Below are positions 1-51,324 of a DNA stretch of 51,513 bases, piece by piece (within the stretch, counting starts at the first letter, position 1; each line of letters starts with the position of its first letter). This DNA comes from Myxococcota bacterium (GTDB taxonomy: Bacteria; Myxococcota_A; Polyangia; Polyangiales; Houyiibacteriaceae), in assembly GCA_028284955.1 (NCBI GenBank), contig JANQQS010000044.1, positions 1 through 51,513 on the forward strand, read 5' to 3'. Below the pieces are notes generated by a model. It saw only the letters and a list, made by a program, of their open reading frames with translations. It was not told where the DNA came from and did not search any database. The position numbers and the translations under genes are program-made.

Positions 1-80
1 GTCACGTGCGTCCTGGCGGGGGAGCTTGGGTGAATCGGCGGGGTCGTACCCCGACGAGAGGGTCTGGGTGCCAGACCCTC
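1..80. repeat. Hairpin repeat copy R1 (80-bp core unit)
   Basis: The window opens with one core unit of the dispersed family. It reads, in reverse orientation to R3a/R3c/R4/R5, from CACGTG through the TGGCGGGGGA and TTGGGTGAATCG blocks to hairpin B (CGGGGT-CGT-ACCCCG, 39-53) and hairpin A (10-bp arms, loop GTG, 58-80). Its reverse complement matches R5 at 50212-50291 at 78 of 80 positions by eye. A stray half of hairpin A (CCCAGACCC) follows at 92-100, directly against the stop codon of the permease. The left edge may continue outside the window. No open reading frame, transposase or T-tract is present. Confidence 0.85.
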
Positions 81-16888: not shown

Positions 16889-16967
16889 TAACGTGCGTCC
16901 TGGCGGGGGAGTTCGGGTGAATCGGCGGGGTCGTACCCCGACGAGAGGGTTTGGGTGCCAAACCCTC
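16889..16967. repeat. Hairpin repeat R2b (core unit)
   Basis: A full core in the same orientation as R1. Hairpin B is CGGGGT-CGT-ACCCCG. Hairpin A has arms GAGGGTTTGG (16945-16954) and CCAAACCCTC (16958-16967) with loop GTG; relative to R1 the arm carries C-to-T on one side and G-to-A on the other, a paired change that keeps the stem perfect. Confidence 0.85.
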
Positions 16968-16977
16968 AAATTAACAG

Positions 16978-17032
16978 CCGGGTGAATCGACGGGATCGTA
17001 TCCCGGCGAGAGGGTCTGGGTGCCAGACCCTC
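16978..17032. repeat. Hairpin repeat R2c (short core, hairpins A and B)
   Basis: Third unit in tandem, lacking the CACGTG and TGGCGGGGG blocks and starting at GGGTGAATCG. Hairpin B is CGGGAT-CGT-ATCCCG (16991-17005), with a paired G-to-A / C-to-T change against R2b. Hairpin A (17010-17032) has the same arms as R1. It ends eight bases from the phosphoesterase stop codon. Confidence 0.85.
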
Positions 17033-17039
17033 AATTAGG

Positions 17040-17699
17040 CTAGTATTCGGTCCATTCTTGGGTGATGTCGGTTCTATCCAGGTGGGGAGTGAGGATGGTG
17101 TAGTGGGCAGTTCGTCCCTCGGGAGCTGCTCCAACGGAGCCCACGTTGACCACGAAGACTCCTTCAAGCTCTCGTCGAAAGGGTACGTGGCTGCCTCCGC
17201 AGACGACGATATCCGCGGGGTCGTCGTCGATGAGCGCTGCGATTTCGCGATCTTCCATGTCGTGTGTAATTTCGCGCGAGGGGTCGGAGGGCGACCCGTG
17301 CACCATCACGATTTCGCTGCCGTCGACCATGGGGATCCGCAATCGTTCCGGCATGCGGCGGATTCGTTCGACGACCAAATCGCCCAGCAGCTTTCGGGTT
17401 GAAATAAACCGGTCGGCCATTGAGCGTTCCTCGTCGTTGCCGGGGCTGAGCGTATTGGGGTCGACCATGAAGAGGGCGGTGTCGCTGAGCCCGCGTACGC
17501 AGCGTGCGTCTACTTCGCGGAGGCGCTTCCATACTTCGAGCGGCTCGTCTCCACCAAAAAGCAAGTCTCCTGCCACGAAGATCGCGCTAATTTCACGTCG
17601 CTCGAGATCTTCGAGCACGGCGTTGAGCGCACGGAGATTCCCGTGAACGTCCGACAAGAAGGCCATGGGCCGCGCGGCGAGCGAGTCTTTCGCGGGCAT
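17040..17699 (-). CDS. Calcineurin-like metallophosphoesterase with altered motifs
   Basis: A 219-residue protein of the YfcE/MJ0936-like group. The first metal motif is intact (FLSDVHGN, about 14-21), as is GDLLFGG (about 45) for the GD motif and MVHGSPSD near residue 132. Two standard motifs are changed: the GNHD/E position reads VRGLSDTA and the final GHTH position reads CGGSHVPF. This may mean altered metal binding or altered substrate rather than loss, since spacing is kept. ATG at 17699 has a weak site (TAGGGT); ATG at 17666 (MAFLSDVHG) is an alternative. The gene is divergent from the MerR-TPR regulator and its stop abuts the R2 repeats. Confidence 0.8.
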   Translation of the reverse strand: MPAKDSLAARPMAFLSDVHGNLRALNAVLEDLERREISAIFVAGDLLFGGDEPLEVWKRLREVDARCVRGLSDTALFMVDPNTLSPGNDEERSMADRFISTRKLLGDLVVERIRRMPERLRIPMVDGSEIVMVHGSPSDPSREITHDMEDREIAALIDDDPADIVVCGGSHVPFRRELEGVFVVNVGSVGAAPEGRTAHYTILTPHLDRTDITQEWTEY

Positions 17700-21013: not shown

Positions 21014-21119
21014 CGATTCACCCAAGCTGCTGTTTATTAGGGTCTGGCACCCAGACCCTCTCGTTCGGGATACGATCCCGAACGATTCACCCAAGCTCCC
21101 CCGCCAGGAGGCACGTGAC
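21014..21119. repeat. Hairpin repeat R3a core (plus a 16-bp remnant)
   Basis: A short remnant (CGATTCACCCAAGCT, 21014-21028) precedes a full core. Hairpin A: GGGTCTGG-CAC-CCAGACCC (21040-21058). Hairpin B has 11-base arms at 21061-21071 and 21075-21085 around loop ACG (TTCGGGAT against ATCCCGAA), a longer and different stem from R1 and R5. The TTCACCCAAGCTCCCCC block and GCACGTGAC follow. This copy is oriented opposite to R1. Confidence 0.85.
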
Positions 21120-21250
21120 TCGGTTGCGTCGGGAAAATCTGATGGGGCCCCCGCCGCTCCGGGGTGGGGCGGCCGCAAAGCGGCCGGAGTCGGGAGGGGG
21201 ACCTGAGCGGGTCGTACCCGCGCGGGGGAGGGTTTGCCTCAAACCCTCCG
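21120..21250. repeat. Hairpin repeat R3a GC-rich module
   Basis: Downstream module of the longer repeat form. It holds GGCCGC-AAA-GCGGCC (21171-21185), GCGGGT-CGT-ACCCGC (21207-21221) with the recurring CGT loop on yet another stem sequence, and a closing hairpin with 10-base arms at 21227-21236 and 21240-21249, loop CCT. Confidence 0.75.
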
Positions 21251-21258
21251 AACAACAC

Positions 21259-21446
21259 AGCTCCCCCGCCAGGATGCACGCGCGCAGTTACGTAGCGGCG
21301 AAATGGTTGTCGGGATCGAAGTATTGTTGTCGTGTGCAGTCTTGCCCCAACGCTGAAGCCCAACGAACCCGGGGCCCCGTCGCGCAGCGATGGGGCGGCC
21401 GCGGCCGCGGCCGGCGTTGGGAGGGGGGCCCCGCGGCTGTGTTGTT
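21259..21446. repeat. Hairpin repeat R3b, degraded unit
   Basis: Begins in the middle of the core (AGCTCCCCCGCCAGGA then TGCACG) without hairpins A and B, continues with a spacer similar to those of R3c and R4 (TATTGTTGTCGTGTGCAGTC, CGCTGAAGCCCAACGAA) and a GC-rich block with many GGCCGC-type inverted repeats. It looks like a unit that lost its first hairpins when R3a arrived or recombined. Confidence 0.6.
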
Positions 21447-21447
21447 T

Positions 21448-21726
21448 GAGGGTTTGGCACCCAAACCCTCTCGTCCGGGATACGATCCCCGACGATTCAC
21501 CCAAGCTCCCCCGCCACGACGCACGTGAACTGGTTGCCTGACGGTGAACCGCGGTAGCGGATTCGAGGTGTTGTCGTCGTCCGCTGTCTTCACCCACCGC
21601 TGAAGCACAACGAAACCGGGGCCCCGCCGCTCCGCGGTGGGGACGGCCGCAAAACGCGGCCGGCGGCGGGTGGGGGGACCCGCGGAATCGTATTCCGTGG
21701 GGGGAGGGGCTACGGCCAGCCCCTCC
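21448..21726. repeat. Hairpin repeat R3c, full-length about 280-bp unit
   Basis: Complete long form. Hairpin A has arms GAGGGTTTGG (21448-21457) and CCAAACCCTC (21461-21470), loop CAC. Hairpin B is a slightly imperfect CGGGAT-ACG stem. After CACGTGA comes a spacer, then CCGGGGCCCCGCCGC, GGCCGC-type hairpins, CGGAAT-CGT-ATTCCG (21683-21697), and a closing hairpin with arms GGAGGGGCT (21703-21711) and AGCCCCTCC (21718-21726). The order and spacing match R4. It lies 57 bases before the transglycosylase start, so the operon promoter must be in or very near the repeat. Confidence 0.85.
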
Positions 21727-21783
21727 GAACAACAGACAGTCGTACGCTTTATGGCCCACGCGCCTCTGAGCTCCTAACATTGC

Positions 21784-40000: not shown

Positions 40001-40337
40001 TTGGGAAGCCGTCATGGCGGGCGGAGTGCGACGTTTTCGACCGATTCTGCTCACATCGCTCACCACTTTTTTTGGCTTGGTCCCCATGATTGTCGAGACG
40101 TCGGTGCAAGCCCGTTTCTTGATTCCCATGGCCATCTCGCTCGCGTTTGGCGTCATCTTCGGGACGGTGATTCTCTTGGTCCTGGTTCCCGCCACCTATC
40201 TCATGCTTGAAGACATTCGCTGGGTCGGACGGTACATCGCCGCACGATTACAGGGCGCGCCCGCGCCGCTACGCCTTCATTCCGAACGCCCGCCGCCCAT
40301 CGAGTCGCCGCGCCCCCTGGCCGACGCGGCCGAATGA
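37026..40337 (+). CDS. RND-family efflux permease (AcrB/HAE type)
   Basis: Proton-driven inner-membrane pump of 1103 residues with the usual twelve helices and two large periplasmic loops. Visible marks: AYPGASPAEVEQGVILAAEEAVRG (in parts), the helix-4 FIVTLGMVVDDAIVVGEAIYK motif with the paired aspartates of the proton relay, LTTCIAFAPMLF, and in the second half GIVALSGVVVNDSLILI and LTSLTTFFGLVPM. A third helix-rich element EAAIAGVREVAHPVTFSILTT is typical of the family. The substrate class is not predictable. The start overlaps the adaptor stop by four bases. Confidence 0.95.
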   Translation: MTPSESDSKGSSSGPVSLRSTLSSSRGPLAWMAQNGVASNVLMAVLIAGGLAMLFTGIKQEVFPEVELDTIVVNVAYPGASPAEVEQGVILAAEEAVRGVDGIKEVRSTANEGVGVVAIELLLGADVDRALNDVKSAIDRITSFPQDIERPVISVATNRTKVVSLVIYGDESEATLRKLADDARTDLLQSEDITYVDLSGVRPLEISIEIPQQELRRHGLTLSGVADTIRASSLEVPAGGVKTRGGEILLRTAGRRDAGTEFGNIVLLSRPDGTQLRIKDIADVRDGFREDDRAAYFNGKPAAMVQVFRVGDETPLTVSAAVHEYVKEKQPQLPSGIDMQLWGDQSEMYEARIRLLERNAYIGLALVLIILGLFLEPKLAFWVTLGIPISFAGSLLFLPSADVSINMISLFAFIVTLGMVVDDAIVVGEAIYKQRADGKSRTEAAIAGVREVAHPVTFSILTTCIAFAPMLFVPGVMGKFFRVIPIVVIAVLLISLVESLVILPAHLAHRMPAWMRIVLWPFFAFMSLLGSDKVGQALEWFIARVYRPTLRQALRWRYLTFAICVATLVATLGLVAGGRIEFAFMPKVESDVVVAQLRLPVGTPAEDTLHIQSRMVAEAERIIKRERTPEGSISRGIFSDLGALTAYDQGPTVGVASSGSHLTTIMVYLVESDRRNISAAKFARDWRNRIGEIPGAEALTFRYATGANAGSAIDVQLSHPNPATLEGAAMRLAQGLEGFRGVKDIDSGVSPGKEQLDFSITPEGQARGLTEAELARQVRAAYYGSEAVRQQRGRDEIRVYVRRPKSERASLHDLESMVVRTPSGGEMPLFEAAKIKRGRAYTTIRRTDGRRTISVTADIAEGEGNANQVVASLTKNELPKLLRDVSGLSYKMGGEQREQADALGSLAVGFALALLVMGGLLAVAFRSYVQPLLVMTAIPFGVVGAIWGHAIMNFDLSIMSMMGIVALSGVVVNDSLILIVAVNRYREEKKPIWEAVMAGGVRRFRPILLTSLTTFFGLVPMIVETSVQARFLIPMAISLAFGVIFGTVILLVLVPATYLMLEDIRWVGRYIAARLQGAPAPLRLHSERPPPIESPRPLADAAE

Positions 40338-40353
40338 TCGCATAAGCAAACAC

Positions 40354-41295
40354 ATGCAATCGATGCGCGCGCGATGGGCGTTTGCCATCAAAACGGGTAG
40401 CTGGCCGAAGCTCTTTGTCCCCACCGCGCTCGGGCAATGCCTCGGCGCAGCCCACCTCGGACGCATCGACATAGCTCCCGCGCTAGCTGGTATCGCCTTC
40501 ACCCTGATGCCCACCCTCGCCATCGTACTACTCAACGATTGGGGCGACCGCGCTGTCGACCGGAAAAAGCGCGTGCTGTTTCCGCACTCGGGCTCGAAAA
40601 AAACGATTCACGATGGGATTCTCCCCGCGGCTCGCGTGCTTTGGGTCGGTCTCGCAGCAGCCGCCGGCACCCTGCTGGCTGCCTACACACTCGAACATTG
40701 GCTCGGGCGTCCCTCGCTCACCGGAATAGCTGTGCTTGGGCTCGCGTTGTTCTGGGCCTATACCTTCCCTCCCATCAAGCTCAACTATCGCGGTGGTGGA
40801 GAGTTGCTCGAAGCGATCGGCGTGGGATTTGTCCTGCCGTGGTTCCACGCATACGTCCAAGGCGGGCTCGGCGCGGAATCGATCCTCTGGCTGCCACGCG
40901 CCTGGGCGGTGCTGCCGGGTTTTGTGTTGCTGAGCTTTTCATCCGCCGTGGCAAGTGGACTAAGCGACGAAGTTTCGGACAAAAAAGGCGGAAAACGCAC
41001 TTTTGTGACCGCGCTGGGCAACCCCCAAGCGCGCCGCCTCTGCGAACTGAGCGCGGCCGTAGGAATCGCGGCCTGGATCTTCGCCGGGATATGCTCAGAG
41101 CGAGCACCACTCGCGGCATGTGCCGTCGCCGGTTGCGTAAGCGCGCTTCACCTCATCAAAGTAGTGCGCGAAAGCCCGTCCGCAATCACCGGCGCATTTC
41201 CCCATCACAAGACATACAAAACACACCTCCATCGCGCGATCTGGCGCGGCGGAACCTGGCTCGCTGCGCTCGTGCTGGCATACAATCTATTGTGA
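40354..41295 (+). CDS. UbiA-type prenyltransferase
   Basis: Integral membrane prenyltransferase of 313 residues, perhaps for quinone or another prenylated lipid. Two Asp-rich motifs bind Mg-prenyl diphosphate: NDWGDRAVDRKKR (about 60-72) and SDEVSDKKGGKRT (about 205-217). About eight helices are seen, and the 1,4-dihydroxy-2-naphthoate branch (MenA-like) is a reasonable guess. ATG at 40354 is used; the longer open frame starts inside the RND gene. It begins 16 bases after the RND stop, so it may be part of that transcript. Its stop lies 24 bases before repeat R4. Confidence 0.85.
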   Translation: MQSMRARWAFAIKTGSWPKLFVPTALGQCLGAAHLGRIDIAPALAGIAFTLMPTLAIVLLNDWGDRAVDRKKRVLFPHSGSKKTIHDGILPAARVLWVGLAAAAGTLLAAYTLEHWLGRPSLTGIAVLGLALFWAYTFPPIKLNYRGGGELLEAIGVGFVLPWFHAYVQGGLGAESILWLPRAWAVLPGFVLLSFSSAVASGLSDEVSDKKGGKRTFVTALGNPQARRLCELSAAVGIAAWIFAGICSERAPLAACAVAGCVSALHLIKVVRESPSAITGAFPHHKTYKTHLHRAIWRGGTWLAALVLAYNLL

Positions 41296-41318
41296 GGATT
41301 TGGCCGTCTGTTTTTCTT

Positions 41319-41397
41319 AGGGTCTGGCACCCAGACCCTCTCGTCGGGGTACGACCCCGCCGATTCACCCAAACTCCCCCGCCAGGAGGCACGTGAC
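41319..41397. repeat. Hairpin repeat R4 core
   Basis: Same orientation as R3c and R5. Hairpin A GGGTCTGG-CAC-CCAGACCC (41320-41338), hairpin B CGGGGT-ACG-ACCCCG (41345-41359), then TTCACCCAAACTCCCCC, CCAGGAGG and CACGTGAC. The preceding GTTTTTCT run ends the UbiA gene's 3' region, but no T-run follows the stem. Confidence 0.88.
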
Positions 41398-41598
41398 CTG
41401 GTTTCGTTAGGGAGAATTGCGGGAGATGGTTCGAGTTGTTGTCGTCGCCTGCACGCAGTCTTGTCCTAAACGATGAAGCACAACGCGACCGGGGCCCCGC
41501 CGCAACGCGGTGGGGACGGCCGCAAACGCGGCCGGCGGCGGGTGGGGGGCCCCGCGGAATCGTATTCCGCGGGGGGAGGGGCTGCGGCCAGCCCCTCC
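41398..41598. repeat. Hairpin repeat R4 spacer and GC-rich module
   Basis: Completes the long unit (41319-41598). The spacer has GTTCGAGTTGTTGTCGTCG and GATGAAGCACAACG as in R3c. The GC block includes GGCCGC-AAAC-GCGGCC, a strong CCCGCGGAAT-CGT-ATTCCGCGGG stem-loop whose two 10-base arms lie at 41551-41560 and 41564-41573, and a closing hairpin with arms at 41575-41584 and 41589-41598, loop CGGC. The GGGGCC and GGCCCC ends of the block can also pair to enclose the inner hairpins. It ends seven bases from the YciO stop. Confidence 0.85.
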
Positions 41599-41604
41599 GA
41601 AAAC

Positions 41605-42204
41605 TTAGATCCAGTCGATGGGGCCGGCGCCTTCTCGCAACACCACGGCCTCATTTTCGCACAGGTCGATGACCGTCGATGGCTCGAGACCCCCATCGCC
41701 CGCATCCAGACACAGCTCAGCGCGCGCATAGCGTTTGGCGAGTTCATCGGGGTCGCTGATCGGTTCACCCTCCCACGACGCCGATGTTGAAACGATGGGT
41801 CGCCCAAGCTCGCGCACCAAACTCAACGCCACCTCATGGTGGGGTACGCGAATACCCACCGTGCGTCGCTTCCGCATGAGCACCCGAGGCACCTCGCGTG
41901 TGGCAGGAAGCACGAAAGTGTACGGCCCAGGCAGCAGGCGGCGCATGACCCGATACGCGGAATCGCTGACGATCGCATACTTCGCAATGTCGCCGAGGTC
42001 AGGACAGACGAAGCCAACCGGATGATCCGATTTGATGCCTTTGAGGCGGTATACCTTTTCGATCGCTCGCTTTTGACGAATGTCGCACCCCACCCCGTAA
42101 ACCGTGTCGGTCGGATACACCACCACCCCACCACGCTCGAGTACGTCCACCGCACGCGCGATCTTCCTCGGCTCAGGATGCGTAGGATGAATCGCTAGCC
42201 GCAT
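41605..42204 (-). CDS. YrdC/Sua5/YciO-family protein
   Basis: Member of the family that makes threonylcarbamoyl-AMP for the tRNA t6A modification, or its YciO paralogue. The 199-residue protein has the nucleotide/bicarbonate-site motifs VVVYPTDTVYGVGCD (about 27-41), KVYRLKGIKSDHP, LLPGPYTFVLPAT and IVSTSASWEGEP. The length without a C-terminal Sua5 domain and the KGIKSDHP form lean to YciO-type. It converges with the UbiA gene, with R4 filling the gap, and shares a six-base gap with the upstream macro-like gene. Confidence 0.88.
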   Translation of the reverse strand: MRLAIHPTHPEPRKIARAVDVLERGGVVVYPTDTVYGVGCDIRQKRAIEKVYRLKGIKSDHPVGFVCPDLGDIAKYAIVSDSAYRVMRRLLPGPYTFVLPATREVPRVLMRKRRTVGIRVPHHEVALSLVRELGRPIVSTSASWEGEPISDPDELAKRYARAELCLDAGDGGLEPSTVIDLCENEAVVLREGAGPIDWI

Positions 42205-49937: not shown

Positions 49938-50192
49938 GTGTTTTTCTTCCGCCCCAATACGCTCGACCAATCCATTTTTGAGCAAGTCAACCACGAAAAC
50001 GAATATCGCCTGCCAAAGACCTTCCGATCGACCGATGTCGTCATCGATATCGGCGCTCATATCGGATCGTTCGCGCACGCGGTTCTCAAGCGCGGGGCCG
50101 GCCACGTGTATGCTTTCGAACCCGACCCTGAGAGCTTCGAGCTGGCCCATCGCAACAACACCCTCGATCAACGCAAGCAGGCACTGCTCTAG
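49938..50192 (+). pseudogene. Truncated FkbM-family methyltransferase remnant
   Basis: An 84-residue open frame starting with GTG. It matches the first part of an FkbM SAM-dependent methyltransferase: VVIDIGAHIGSFAHAVLKRGA (in parts, motif I) and VYAFEPDPESFE (motif II). The family fold needs roughly 100 further residues, which are absent; the frame stops at 50192, 19 bases before repeat R5, and no continuing fragment appears on the far side. It is therefore probably a decayed gene whose end was lost when the repeat or adjacent rearrangement occurred. The neighbouring TylF-like gene suggests a former sugar- or polyketide-modification cluster. Confidence 0.7.
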
Positions 50193-50211
50193 AGCGCTGA
50201 TCAGTTTGCCT

Positions 50212-50291
50212 GAGGGTCTGGCACCCAGACCCTCTCGTCGGGGTACGACCCCGACGATTCACCCAAGCTCCCCCGCCAGGAGGCACGTGAC
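50212..50291. repeat. Hairpin repeat R5 (80-bp core unit)
   Basis: Cleanest core. Hairpin A: arms GAGGGTCTGG (50212-50221) and CCAGACCCTC (50225-50234), loop CAC. Hairpin B: 10-base arms TCGTCGGGGT (50235-50244) and ACCCCGACGA (50248-50257), loop ACG, starting directly after hairpin A. Then TTCACCCAAGCTCCCCC, GCCAGGAGG and CACGTGAC. It ends exactly where R1 begins in mirror image, so the 80-bp limits are supported by two independent copies. Confidence 0.88.
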
Positions 50292-50456
50292 ATGGTTGCC
50301 GGGGAGTTCGTCGGATGTCTTTGCGCTGCGTGATTTCGATCGACCACACTGACCACTGCACTGCCAAGCAGTGATCAGATTGGTTGACTGCAGCTCAAGT
50401 CGCATCCCATAGAGCAGTGGAATTTTGAGTCTGAGCTTGAGCGCCCCGGCAGCGCA

Positions 50457-50491
50457 GCCCGGATGACGCACGAATAGTGCTTCGTCCGGGC
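50457..50491. other. Long imperfect inverted repeat
   Basis: Arms GCCCGGATGACGCAC (50457-50471) and GTGCTTCGTCCGGGC (50477-50491) pair at 13 of 15 positions around a five-base loop. It lies 45 bases beyond the stop of the TylF-like gene and could act in 3'-end formation on the minus strand. A shorter inverted repeat (CACTGC / GCAGTG, 50354-50373) lies nearby. Neither resembles the R1-R5 hairpins. I see no gene in 50292-50535. Confidence 0.45.
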
Positions 50492-50535
50492 GAGCAGGGG
50501 AGGTAAGCCAAGATCAGGCCAAAAGGCCACTGCTC

Positions 50536-51324
50536 TTAGCGTTTGATGGCGACGCGGCCGGTATGATCAAGCCGATTAAGCAGCAACGAGATACCGTGCT
50601 CGGCAAAGTATTCGTCCACCGCGCGACGGGCGCCCTGCCAGTGCCCGTAGTCGTCGAGAATCAGCACGCCGCCGGACACCAGCTTCGGGTAGAGGTGAAT
50701 CAGCTCGTGGCGCGTGGATTCATACCAGTCGGTGTCGAGCCGCAAGACCGCAATGCGTTCGGGAACCGTCTCCGGAATCGTGTCTTCGACTTTGCCGGCT
50801 ACGAACACCACGTGCTCGCTCGGATATCCCGTCGAGGCCATGTTGCGCTCGACCTCGTCGATCCCCGAATAGCACCACTCACTCCCCGCGCCGCGGCGAA
50901 GCGCGTTCCATTTCGTGGCCGCGGTTTCCCCGCGATAGTCGACGTCGAGCGAAGAAGGCTCGGGCAACCCTTCGTAGGTATCGTAGAGATAGAGTTTGCG
51001 CGATGTGTCGCCGTGCGATTTTAGGGTCAGCGCGGCGTTCATTGAACTCCCCCCGCGCCACACCCCGCATTCGACGAAGTCGCCAGGCACGCCCGCCCGC
51101 GATACGTAATCGACCGCCTGATAGAGCCCGAACATCCGTTCAAAACTCGTCATCGTGTAGGGCTTCGCAGCCTCCCAGATGTTCGCGAACTCGGGATATG
51201 ACCGCAGCTCGTCTCGAGCTTTGTCGACCACATCGAGATTGGCCGGTGCCAACACCTTTCGCGCCACTTTGGCCAAGTCTTTGCGTGCTCGCGTCCGTAA
51301 CCGTGTGAATTGCGTTTCGTTCAT
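50536..51324 (-). CDS. TylF/MycF-like O-methyltransferase
   Basis: A 262-residue SAM-dependent methyltransferase of the macrocin-O-methyltransferase family, acting on sugar or lipid hydroxyls. Features: SFERMFGLYQAVDYVSRAG, FVECGVWRGGSSMNAA (SAM motif I), LYDTYEGLPEPSSLD, then RLDTDWYESTRHELIHLYPK and VLILDDYGHWQGARRAVDEYF, where the DTDWYEST / DDYGHW acidic residues bind the metal and substrate in this family. ATG at 51324 (MNETQFTRL) is used; the open frame to 51384 is less likely. It probably belonged to the same surface-glycan or secondary-metabolite region as the broken FkbM gene. Confidence 0.9.
   Translation of the reverse strand: MNETQFTRLRTRARKDLAKVARKVLAPANLDVVDKARDELRSYPEFANIWEAAKPYTMTSFERMFGLYQAVDYVSRAGVPGDFVECGVWRGGSSMNAALTLKSHGDTSRKLYLYDTYEGLPEPSSLDVDYRGETAATKWNALRRGAGSEWCYSGIDEVERNMASTGYPSEHVVFVAGKVEDTIPETVPERIAVLRLDTDWYESTRHELIHLYPKLVSGGVLILDDYGHWQGARRAVDEYFAEHGISLLLNRLDHTGRVAIKR

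Follow-up and report, generated by a model that had tools for sequence, protein, structure and literature searches.

Palindromic repeats of the REP kind are usually ascribed to a dedicated RAYT enzyme or, in the case of the CGTC group, left unexplained. They are located at most 20 bp from 3' ends (PMC3733652). Rho-dependent termination is reportedly aided by them (PMC2817692), and those no further than 15 nt from a stop codon have been reported to lower translation (PMC12306157). For the CGTC-tagged REPs, which are also found near 3' ends and include elements of Rickettsia, no dedicated transposase is known (PMC3733652). Members of the IS1202 group have TGT ends and are associated with duplications of 16-28 bp (PMC10132070). 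The element described here, found in the genome of a Myxococcota bacterium, is REP-like in the broad sense, i.e. a high-copy palindromic extragenic repeat located near 3' ends and mainly between convergent or unidirectional genes. The data presented below suggest that it is an undescribed mobile gene-end signal.

The window, i.e. the whole stretch of 51,513 nucleotides that was analysed, is one entire contig (C215) of a 6.07-Mb genome assembled in 223 contigs (G000), and its left end falls inside a copy of the element. The copy at 50212-50291 had been noted to resemble the reverse complement of positions 1-80, and recomputation of this comparison gave the same 78 identical positions out of 80. 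Repeat finding in the window placed related copies at 16.9, 17.0, 21.0, 21.4, 41.3 and 50.2 kb, and a search with a core covariance model returned seven modules with E-values from 1.6e-16 to 3.5e-13, so that the related cores reported in the original prediction were recovered by both methods. The window copy folds, as had been predicted, into two abutting hairpins; both have 10-bp stems and 3-nt loops. Hairpin A (50212-50234, + strand; GAGGGTCTGG-CAC-CCAGACCCTC) is backed by the fold and by covariation, and hairpin B (50236-50256, +; CGTCGGGG-TACGA-CCCCGACG, with a closer loop of 3 nt on folding) by the fold, stem variants and covariation. Within the genome of the window, hairpin A takes the form GAGGGTYTGG-CAC-CCARACCCTC. 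In the core, a short link of pyrimidines separates hairpin A from hairpin B, and B is followed by ATTCACCC and then by a C-rich tail. The unpaired ATTCACCC 3' of hairpin B (50257-50264, +) is near-invariant: of the 42 copies in the alignment, 40 contain it and two have TTCACCC instead. Sequence comparison of the copies defined the tail as AAGCTCCCCCGCCAGGAGGCACGTGACATGGTT (50265-50297, +), in which CTCCCCCGCC is common to the window's genome and the genus g9. The end CACGTGAC, to which the original prediction had drawn attention, turned out to be the version of the window's genome only.

The 80-bp length given to the element had to be revised: the copies are real, but the 80 bp are part of longer mosaics of two types, termed N and T, in which nested and tandem copies were also found. 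The N type is a hairpin chain of approximately 250-450 bp with the ends TGTTGTT...AACAACA, the left end of which is the 80-bp unit and the right end a weak inverted A-B copy. The T type, to which the 50.2-kb copy belongs, is a unit of approximately 155 bp with the core inside and the ends CTAGAGCAGTG...CACTGCTCTAG (CTAGAGC...GCTCTAG). Both types were delimited in the window from the high-copy intervals and the sequences, giving a complete N-type element at 41312-41603 (+), which nearly fills the gap between two convergent genes, and a whole T-type unit with CTAGAGC...ACTGC ends at 50188-50362 (+) around the 50.2-kb core. The other modules were located by the covariance model. At the left contig end, a module at 28-80 (-) follows a permease gene (101-1390), and a tandem pair is formed by the modules at 16980-17032 (-), 7 nt past the stop codon of the gene at 17040-17699, and, as the second of the two, 16915-16967 (-). 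The module at 21038-21092 (+) is an exception in that it sits between divergent genes, and the one at 21448-21502 (+) is contained in a mosaic extending from 21014 to 21735. The N-type element has its left end in the module at 41318-41370 (+), downstream of the gene at 40207-41295, and its right end in a diverged inverted module at 41547-41597 (-; weak match, E 3e-4), which adjoins the stop codon of the gene at 41605-42204. Two further features were seen around the T-type unit. A fragment of an FkbM-type methyltransferase gene (49997-50192, +) is cut short at the end of a T-type element, with no remainder of the gene seen. At 50367-50536 lies a second repeat type with TAGAGCAGTGGMMTTTTGG...GCTCTA ends, found at many places of the same genome (e.g. 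L049-L068 and L111-L150), in which the frame is constant and the internal hairpin is swapped wholesale among copies (GCGAAAGGCTCGGAGCCTTCC, GAGGTAC..GTACCTC, GGCCAGCCGACG..).

The element is abundant in its own genome, in numbers that chance would not give. BLAST gave 271 first-look candidates and at least 50 listed matches, with E-values down to 3e-42, and many contigs of the assembly end inside a copy. In a sample of 1.16 Mb from this genome, made up of stretches picked partly through matches to the element, 72 core matches were found and the element was the dominant repeat; extrapolation from four long contigs gave approximately 227 modules per genome. The same sample contained many copies of degenerate hexamer-like repeat islands (CCGAACCCGACGCC..., TTCGGGATCGGCGTC...; contigs C155, C183, C184, C88 and C151).

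The original prediction stated that no flanking coding gene was associated with the element; this was contradicted by the gene map, in which the element abuts stop codons. With gene ends taken from simple ORF calls, 24 copies of the window's genome were found to have a gene end no more than 80 nt from the edge of hairpin A; in all 24 it is a 3' end and the core is in sense to the gene, compared to 172 three-prime and 190 five-prime ends at random intergenic positions. In the genera g9 and g77 and in more distant genera, the nearest gene end is at most 60 nt away in 17 copies, and it is a 3' end in 15 of these and a 5' end in two. Pooled over these limits of 60-80 nt, 39 of 41 copies are in sense with hairpin A just past the stop codon. 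The distance depends on the type: N-type copies begin mostly 0-11 nt past the stop and T-type copies mostly 18-20 nt past it, the TAG of the CTAG end often being the stop itself. Convergent gene pairs surround 15 of 29 loci, against a background of approximately 20%. Read in the sense direction, the links contain much C and little G (C:G 8.3), a composition that would suit a Rho-dependent termination signal, for which C-rich, G-poor unstructured RNA is expected upstream of the 3' ends. Over the 80 nt past the stop, the median C/G ratio was 1.42 with and 1.04 without the element, with a p-value of 1.5e-7 that overstates the evidence because near-identical copies are not independent.

We assessed the structure on aligned copies from several genera. 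In a set of 30 distinct sequences, no cell of hairpin A was unpaired, and double-change cells numbered 22 compared to 8.0 in shuffled data (0/500). For hairpins A and B together, the covariation score over five genera was 0.271 against 0.095 after shuffling (0/500). In 41 distinct sequences 85% of the cells pair, as opposed to at most 62% with slid partners (0/500), on an alignment that was fitted to the model and leans to it. The stem sequences are unrelated among genera, yet still complementary. These results agree with the earlier suggestion of a structured nucleic acid. In long perfect palindromes, template switching during replication can keep complementarity without selection. Preserved pairing alone is therefore not proof of selection, because palindromes can be corrected during replication, and conservation of the unpaired links is the stronger sign. 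Judged from these alignments, the structure is under constraint or correction.

In order to follow the element beyond its own genome, sequence and covariance searches were combined. A plain DNA search of 58 relatives detected it clearly only in g9, a genus of the same family represented by two species (G008 and G015), and a covariance model built from the window's genome and g9 found it in the genus g77 of another family, where different stems (GGGGGACGC-CTC-GCGTCCCCC and CGTCCGGGC-AAA-GCCCGGACG) surround unchanged links. A second covariance model comprising A, B and the links was then run on 318 genomes of the class with a cut-off of E <=1e-4 per genome and identified 26 of them, from 16 genera and seven families, as carriers, usually with several copies each. 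The distant loci inspected keep the order of A, CTCTC or similar, B and ATTCACCC with new stem sequences, modules stand in tandem in G253 and G010, and the links CCCTCTC and ATTCACCC are near-invariant among carriers. One weak distant match that was inspected (L274) lacks ATTCACCC and may not belong to the family, and the tally of 26 may therefore include false members among its weakest genomes. Pattern matches in records of Parcubacteria and Acetobacteraceae had no hairpins and were taken as chance, and searches of viral contigs (with the exact pattern), plasmids and phages gave no match. At g77 loci (L218-L233, L261-L266), TAGAGC...GCTCTA hairpins were seen beside the module, the TAG of which is sometimes the stop codon, like in the T type of the window's genome.

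Empty sites in close relatives, the search for which had been proposed, were found between the two g9 species. Each species has a copy at ilvB-ilvN that is absent from the other: that of G008 lies at the start of ilvN, and that of G015 within the 3' part of ilvB; the latter (locus L154) is read in frame near the C-terminus of acetolactate synthase and adds residues that are absent from G008. In the gene for PDH E2, G015 has a copy with a duplication, so that the start of the gene is present in two versions, one on either side of the copy; G008 has one start and no copy. Target duplications of 21, 23 and 28 bp accompany three g9 insertions and include the start codon of the next gene; a duplication is recognisable in some g9 copies only. 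Around whole repeat islands of the window's genome, two or three pairs of direct duplications exceeded the controls, but these consisted of low-complexity or other repeat sequence or were weakly alike, and no target duplication was recognised there. Terminal inverted repeats are present in the N- and T-type units and absent from the g9 module. Between rpsB and tsf, both g9 species have a copy, the hairpin A of which is changed but has kept its full pairing, and copies can therefore also persist. Together with the copy number and dispersal, the filled and empty orthologous sites and the target duplications uphold the proposal of a non-autonomous mobile element: by these comparisons of sites, the element is mobile.

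Which enzyme might move the element was considered on the basis of the transposase and reverse transcriptase loci fetched from carrier genomes, none of which had the module in its flanks, and of the 1.16-Mb sample, in which no long repeated insertion sequences of IS type were recognised. Copy number, palindromes, intergenic 3' location and the single Y1 gene of the window's genome (Pfam E 1.7e-6) would fit a REP mobilised by a RAYT transposase (TnpA_REP, a Y1 HUH enzyme). However, no module flanks this Y1 gene, those of G008 and G015 have inverted repeats of another sequence than the element at their sides and are apparently separate REP systems, and a GTAG at the stem foot is absent in the genera inspected, which have TTTGA, TTGCCTGA and similar before A and TCT or TCTC before B. 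Moreover, Y1 was undetected in four carriers (G155, G156, G157 and G010) and present without the element in many relatives, and the RAYT-like or HUH partner of matching distribution that had been envisaged found no support. We thus rejected membership in the GTAG/RAYT-type REPs, given the lack of the tag, the lack of a module next to any Y1 locus examined and the mismatched distribution, and regard mobilisation by RAYT as very improbable and largely refuted. A MITE of a DDE insertion sequence is improbable as well; candidates would be the IS1202 group, a possible lead with its long duplications and TGT ends, and, in the case of the T-type frame, an IS630-like element with TA ends. The duplications of 21-28 bp, which overlap in length with those of IS1202 elements (16-28 bp; PMC10132070), and the inverted ends of the N and T types speak for it; against this, the window's genome gave no match to DDE_3 (or reverse transcriptase) and a sole match to the general rve model that is not flanked by the element, inverted repeats of the form TGT...ACA do not make up the ends in g9, g77 and f22, and it is the internal hairpins and links that are conserved. 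As a separate observation, the RAYT-like Y1 genes of the g9 species have long inverted repeats at 1322-1388/2131-2197 (L090), 1115-1193/1975-2053 (L091) and 1122-1152/1953-1983 (L093).

Position behind stop codons and conserved structure could also be expected of an intrinsic terminator or a ligand-sensing cis-regulatory RNA that is inherited by descent and not mobile. This reading is mostly refuted and hardly credible any longer, since near-identical copies behind unrelated genes, together with the filled and empty sites, require copying; the element is not an intrinsic terminator because no T run follows either hairpin (TCTCG or CTCTC comes after A), and no terminator-like matches fell on the elements. 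With moderate confidence, we regard it as a non-autonomous mobile REP/BIME-like 3'-UTR element, in which A and B are joined by C-rich links and lie in sense past stop codons, and which most likely acts in RNA. A possible, though clearly less probable, account is selfish DNA only, according to which transposition directed to single-stranded DNA or to stop regions yields the one orientation and the hairpins and links are recognition sites of the enzyme that are idle in RNA. Indeed, the same orientation could come from a directional insertion mechanism without any RNA function; mobility with duplications, mosaic and nested copies, and the replacement of stems with retention of links, as expected for recognition by an enzyme, are in line with this account, whereas the failure to find an enzyme flanked by the element and the rpsB-tsf site, where the changed but paired hairpin A in both g9 species suggests maintenance (independent insertion being possible), speak against it. 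Rather doubtful is the broader proposal that structured RNA elements of gene ends form an undescribed family throughout the class with its own copying route, maybe via a folded single strand, with duplications of 20-30 bp, one-directional landing past stops and a putative mobilising enzyme, so that the element would be a portable signal for transcript ends.

If the element acts in RNA as we favour, hairpin A would form in the transcript immediately after the ribosome that terminates, and the C-rich links, being exposed, might serve as a Rho loading site, or the hairpins as a barrier to 3' exonucleases, by which the end of the transcript would be marked. The inverted pair in N-type elements could provide such an end signal for both genes of a convergent pair. 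A putative enzyme acting in trans may recognise the strand in its folded form and make the copies, which may survive at gene ends, being useful or harmless there. A role as transcript-end signal through Rho loading, exonuclease block or both is the most economical reading, and if it is true, many transcript ends in this organism would be shaped by a mobile element. The filled and empty site pairs and the covariance model are direct test material for the mobilising enzyme and for the gene-end function of palindromic repeats.

Among the described systems, the GTAG-tagged, RAYT-associated REP/BIME share with the element hundreds of palindromic copies, location close past stop codons, convergent genes, mosaic arrays and compensatory stem changes (PMC3733652, PMC2817692). 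The element differs from them in that it lacks the GTAG tag and has two hairpins and near-invariant links rich in C instead of one tagged hairpin, and by a strict sense orientation, duplications of 21-28 bp at some sites and no cognate RAYT found. CGTC-tagged REPs are also near 3' ends, and hairpin B of the window starts with CGTC. In these REPs, however, an unpaired CGTC, TGTC or CCTC tag goes along with a stem of 8-9 bp, whereas the CGTC of the element is inside the stem, is paired with GACG and varies (CGCC, CGTT, GGCT, CACC); the AT pairs at the stem foot and the CCA tail are lacking, and CCCTCTC and ATTCACCC are conserved instead, so that membership as defined in PMC3733652 was rejected. 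Like the Rickettsia palindromic elements (RPE), the element is a small palindromic mobile element that can lie in frame inside a conserved gene (ilvB of G015), but it is found mostly at gene ends, with one clear intragenic case, and has another sequence and architecture. With the IS1202 group and its possible MITEs it has in common long target duplications and, in the N type, TGT...ACA ends; it differs in that no transposase was found here, its conserved parts are internal and its ends differ between genera. A scan of the window against Rfam gave no matches, and a permissive scan of 41250-41650 gave chance-level E-values of 2.6 and 4 at best; this, and the absence of the GTAG and CGTC tags of the REP super-families (PMC3733652), agrees with the original remark that it was not recognised as a known repeat family. 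The family combines a two-hairpin code with constant single-stranded motifs, class-wide spread and visible insertions, with no Y1 partner found. By the sequence evidence assembled here, it is a class-wide family of REP-like double-hairpin elements that stands apart from the RAYT-type REPs, the CGTC REPs and the Rfam families.
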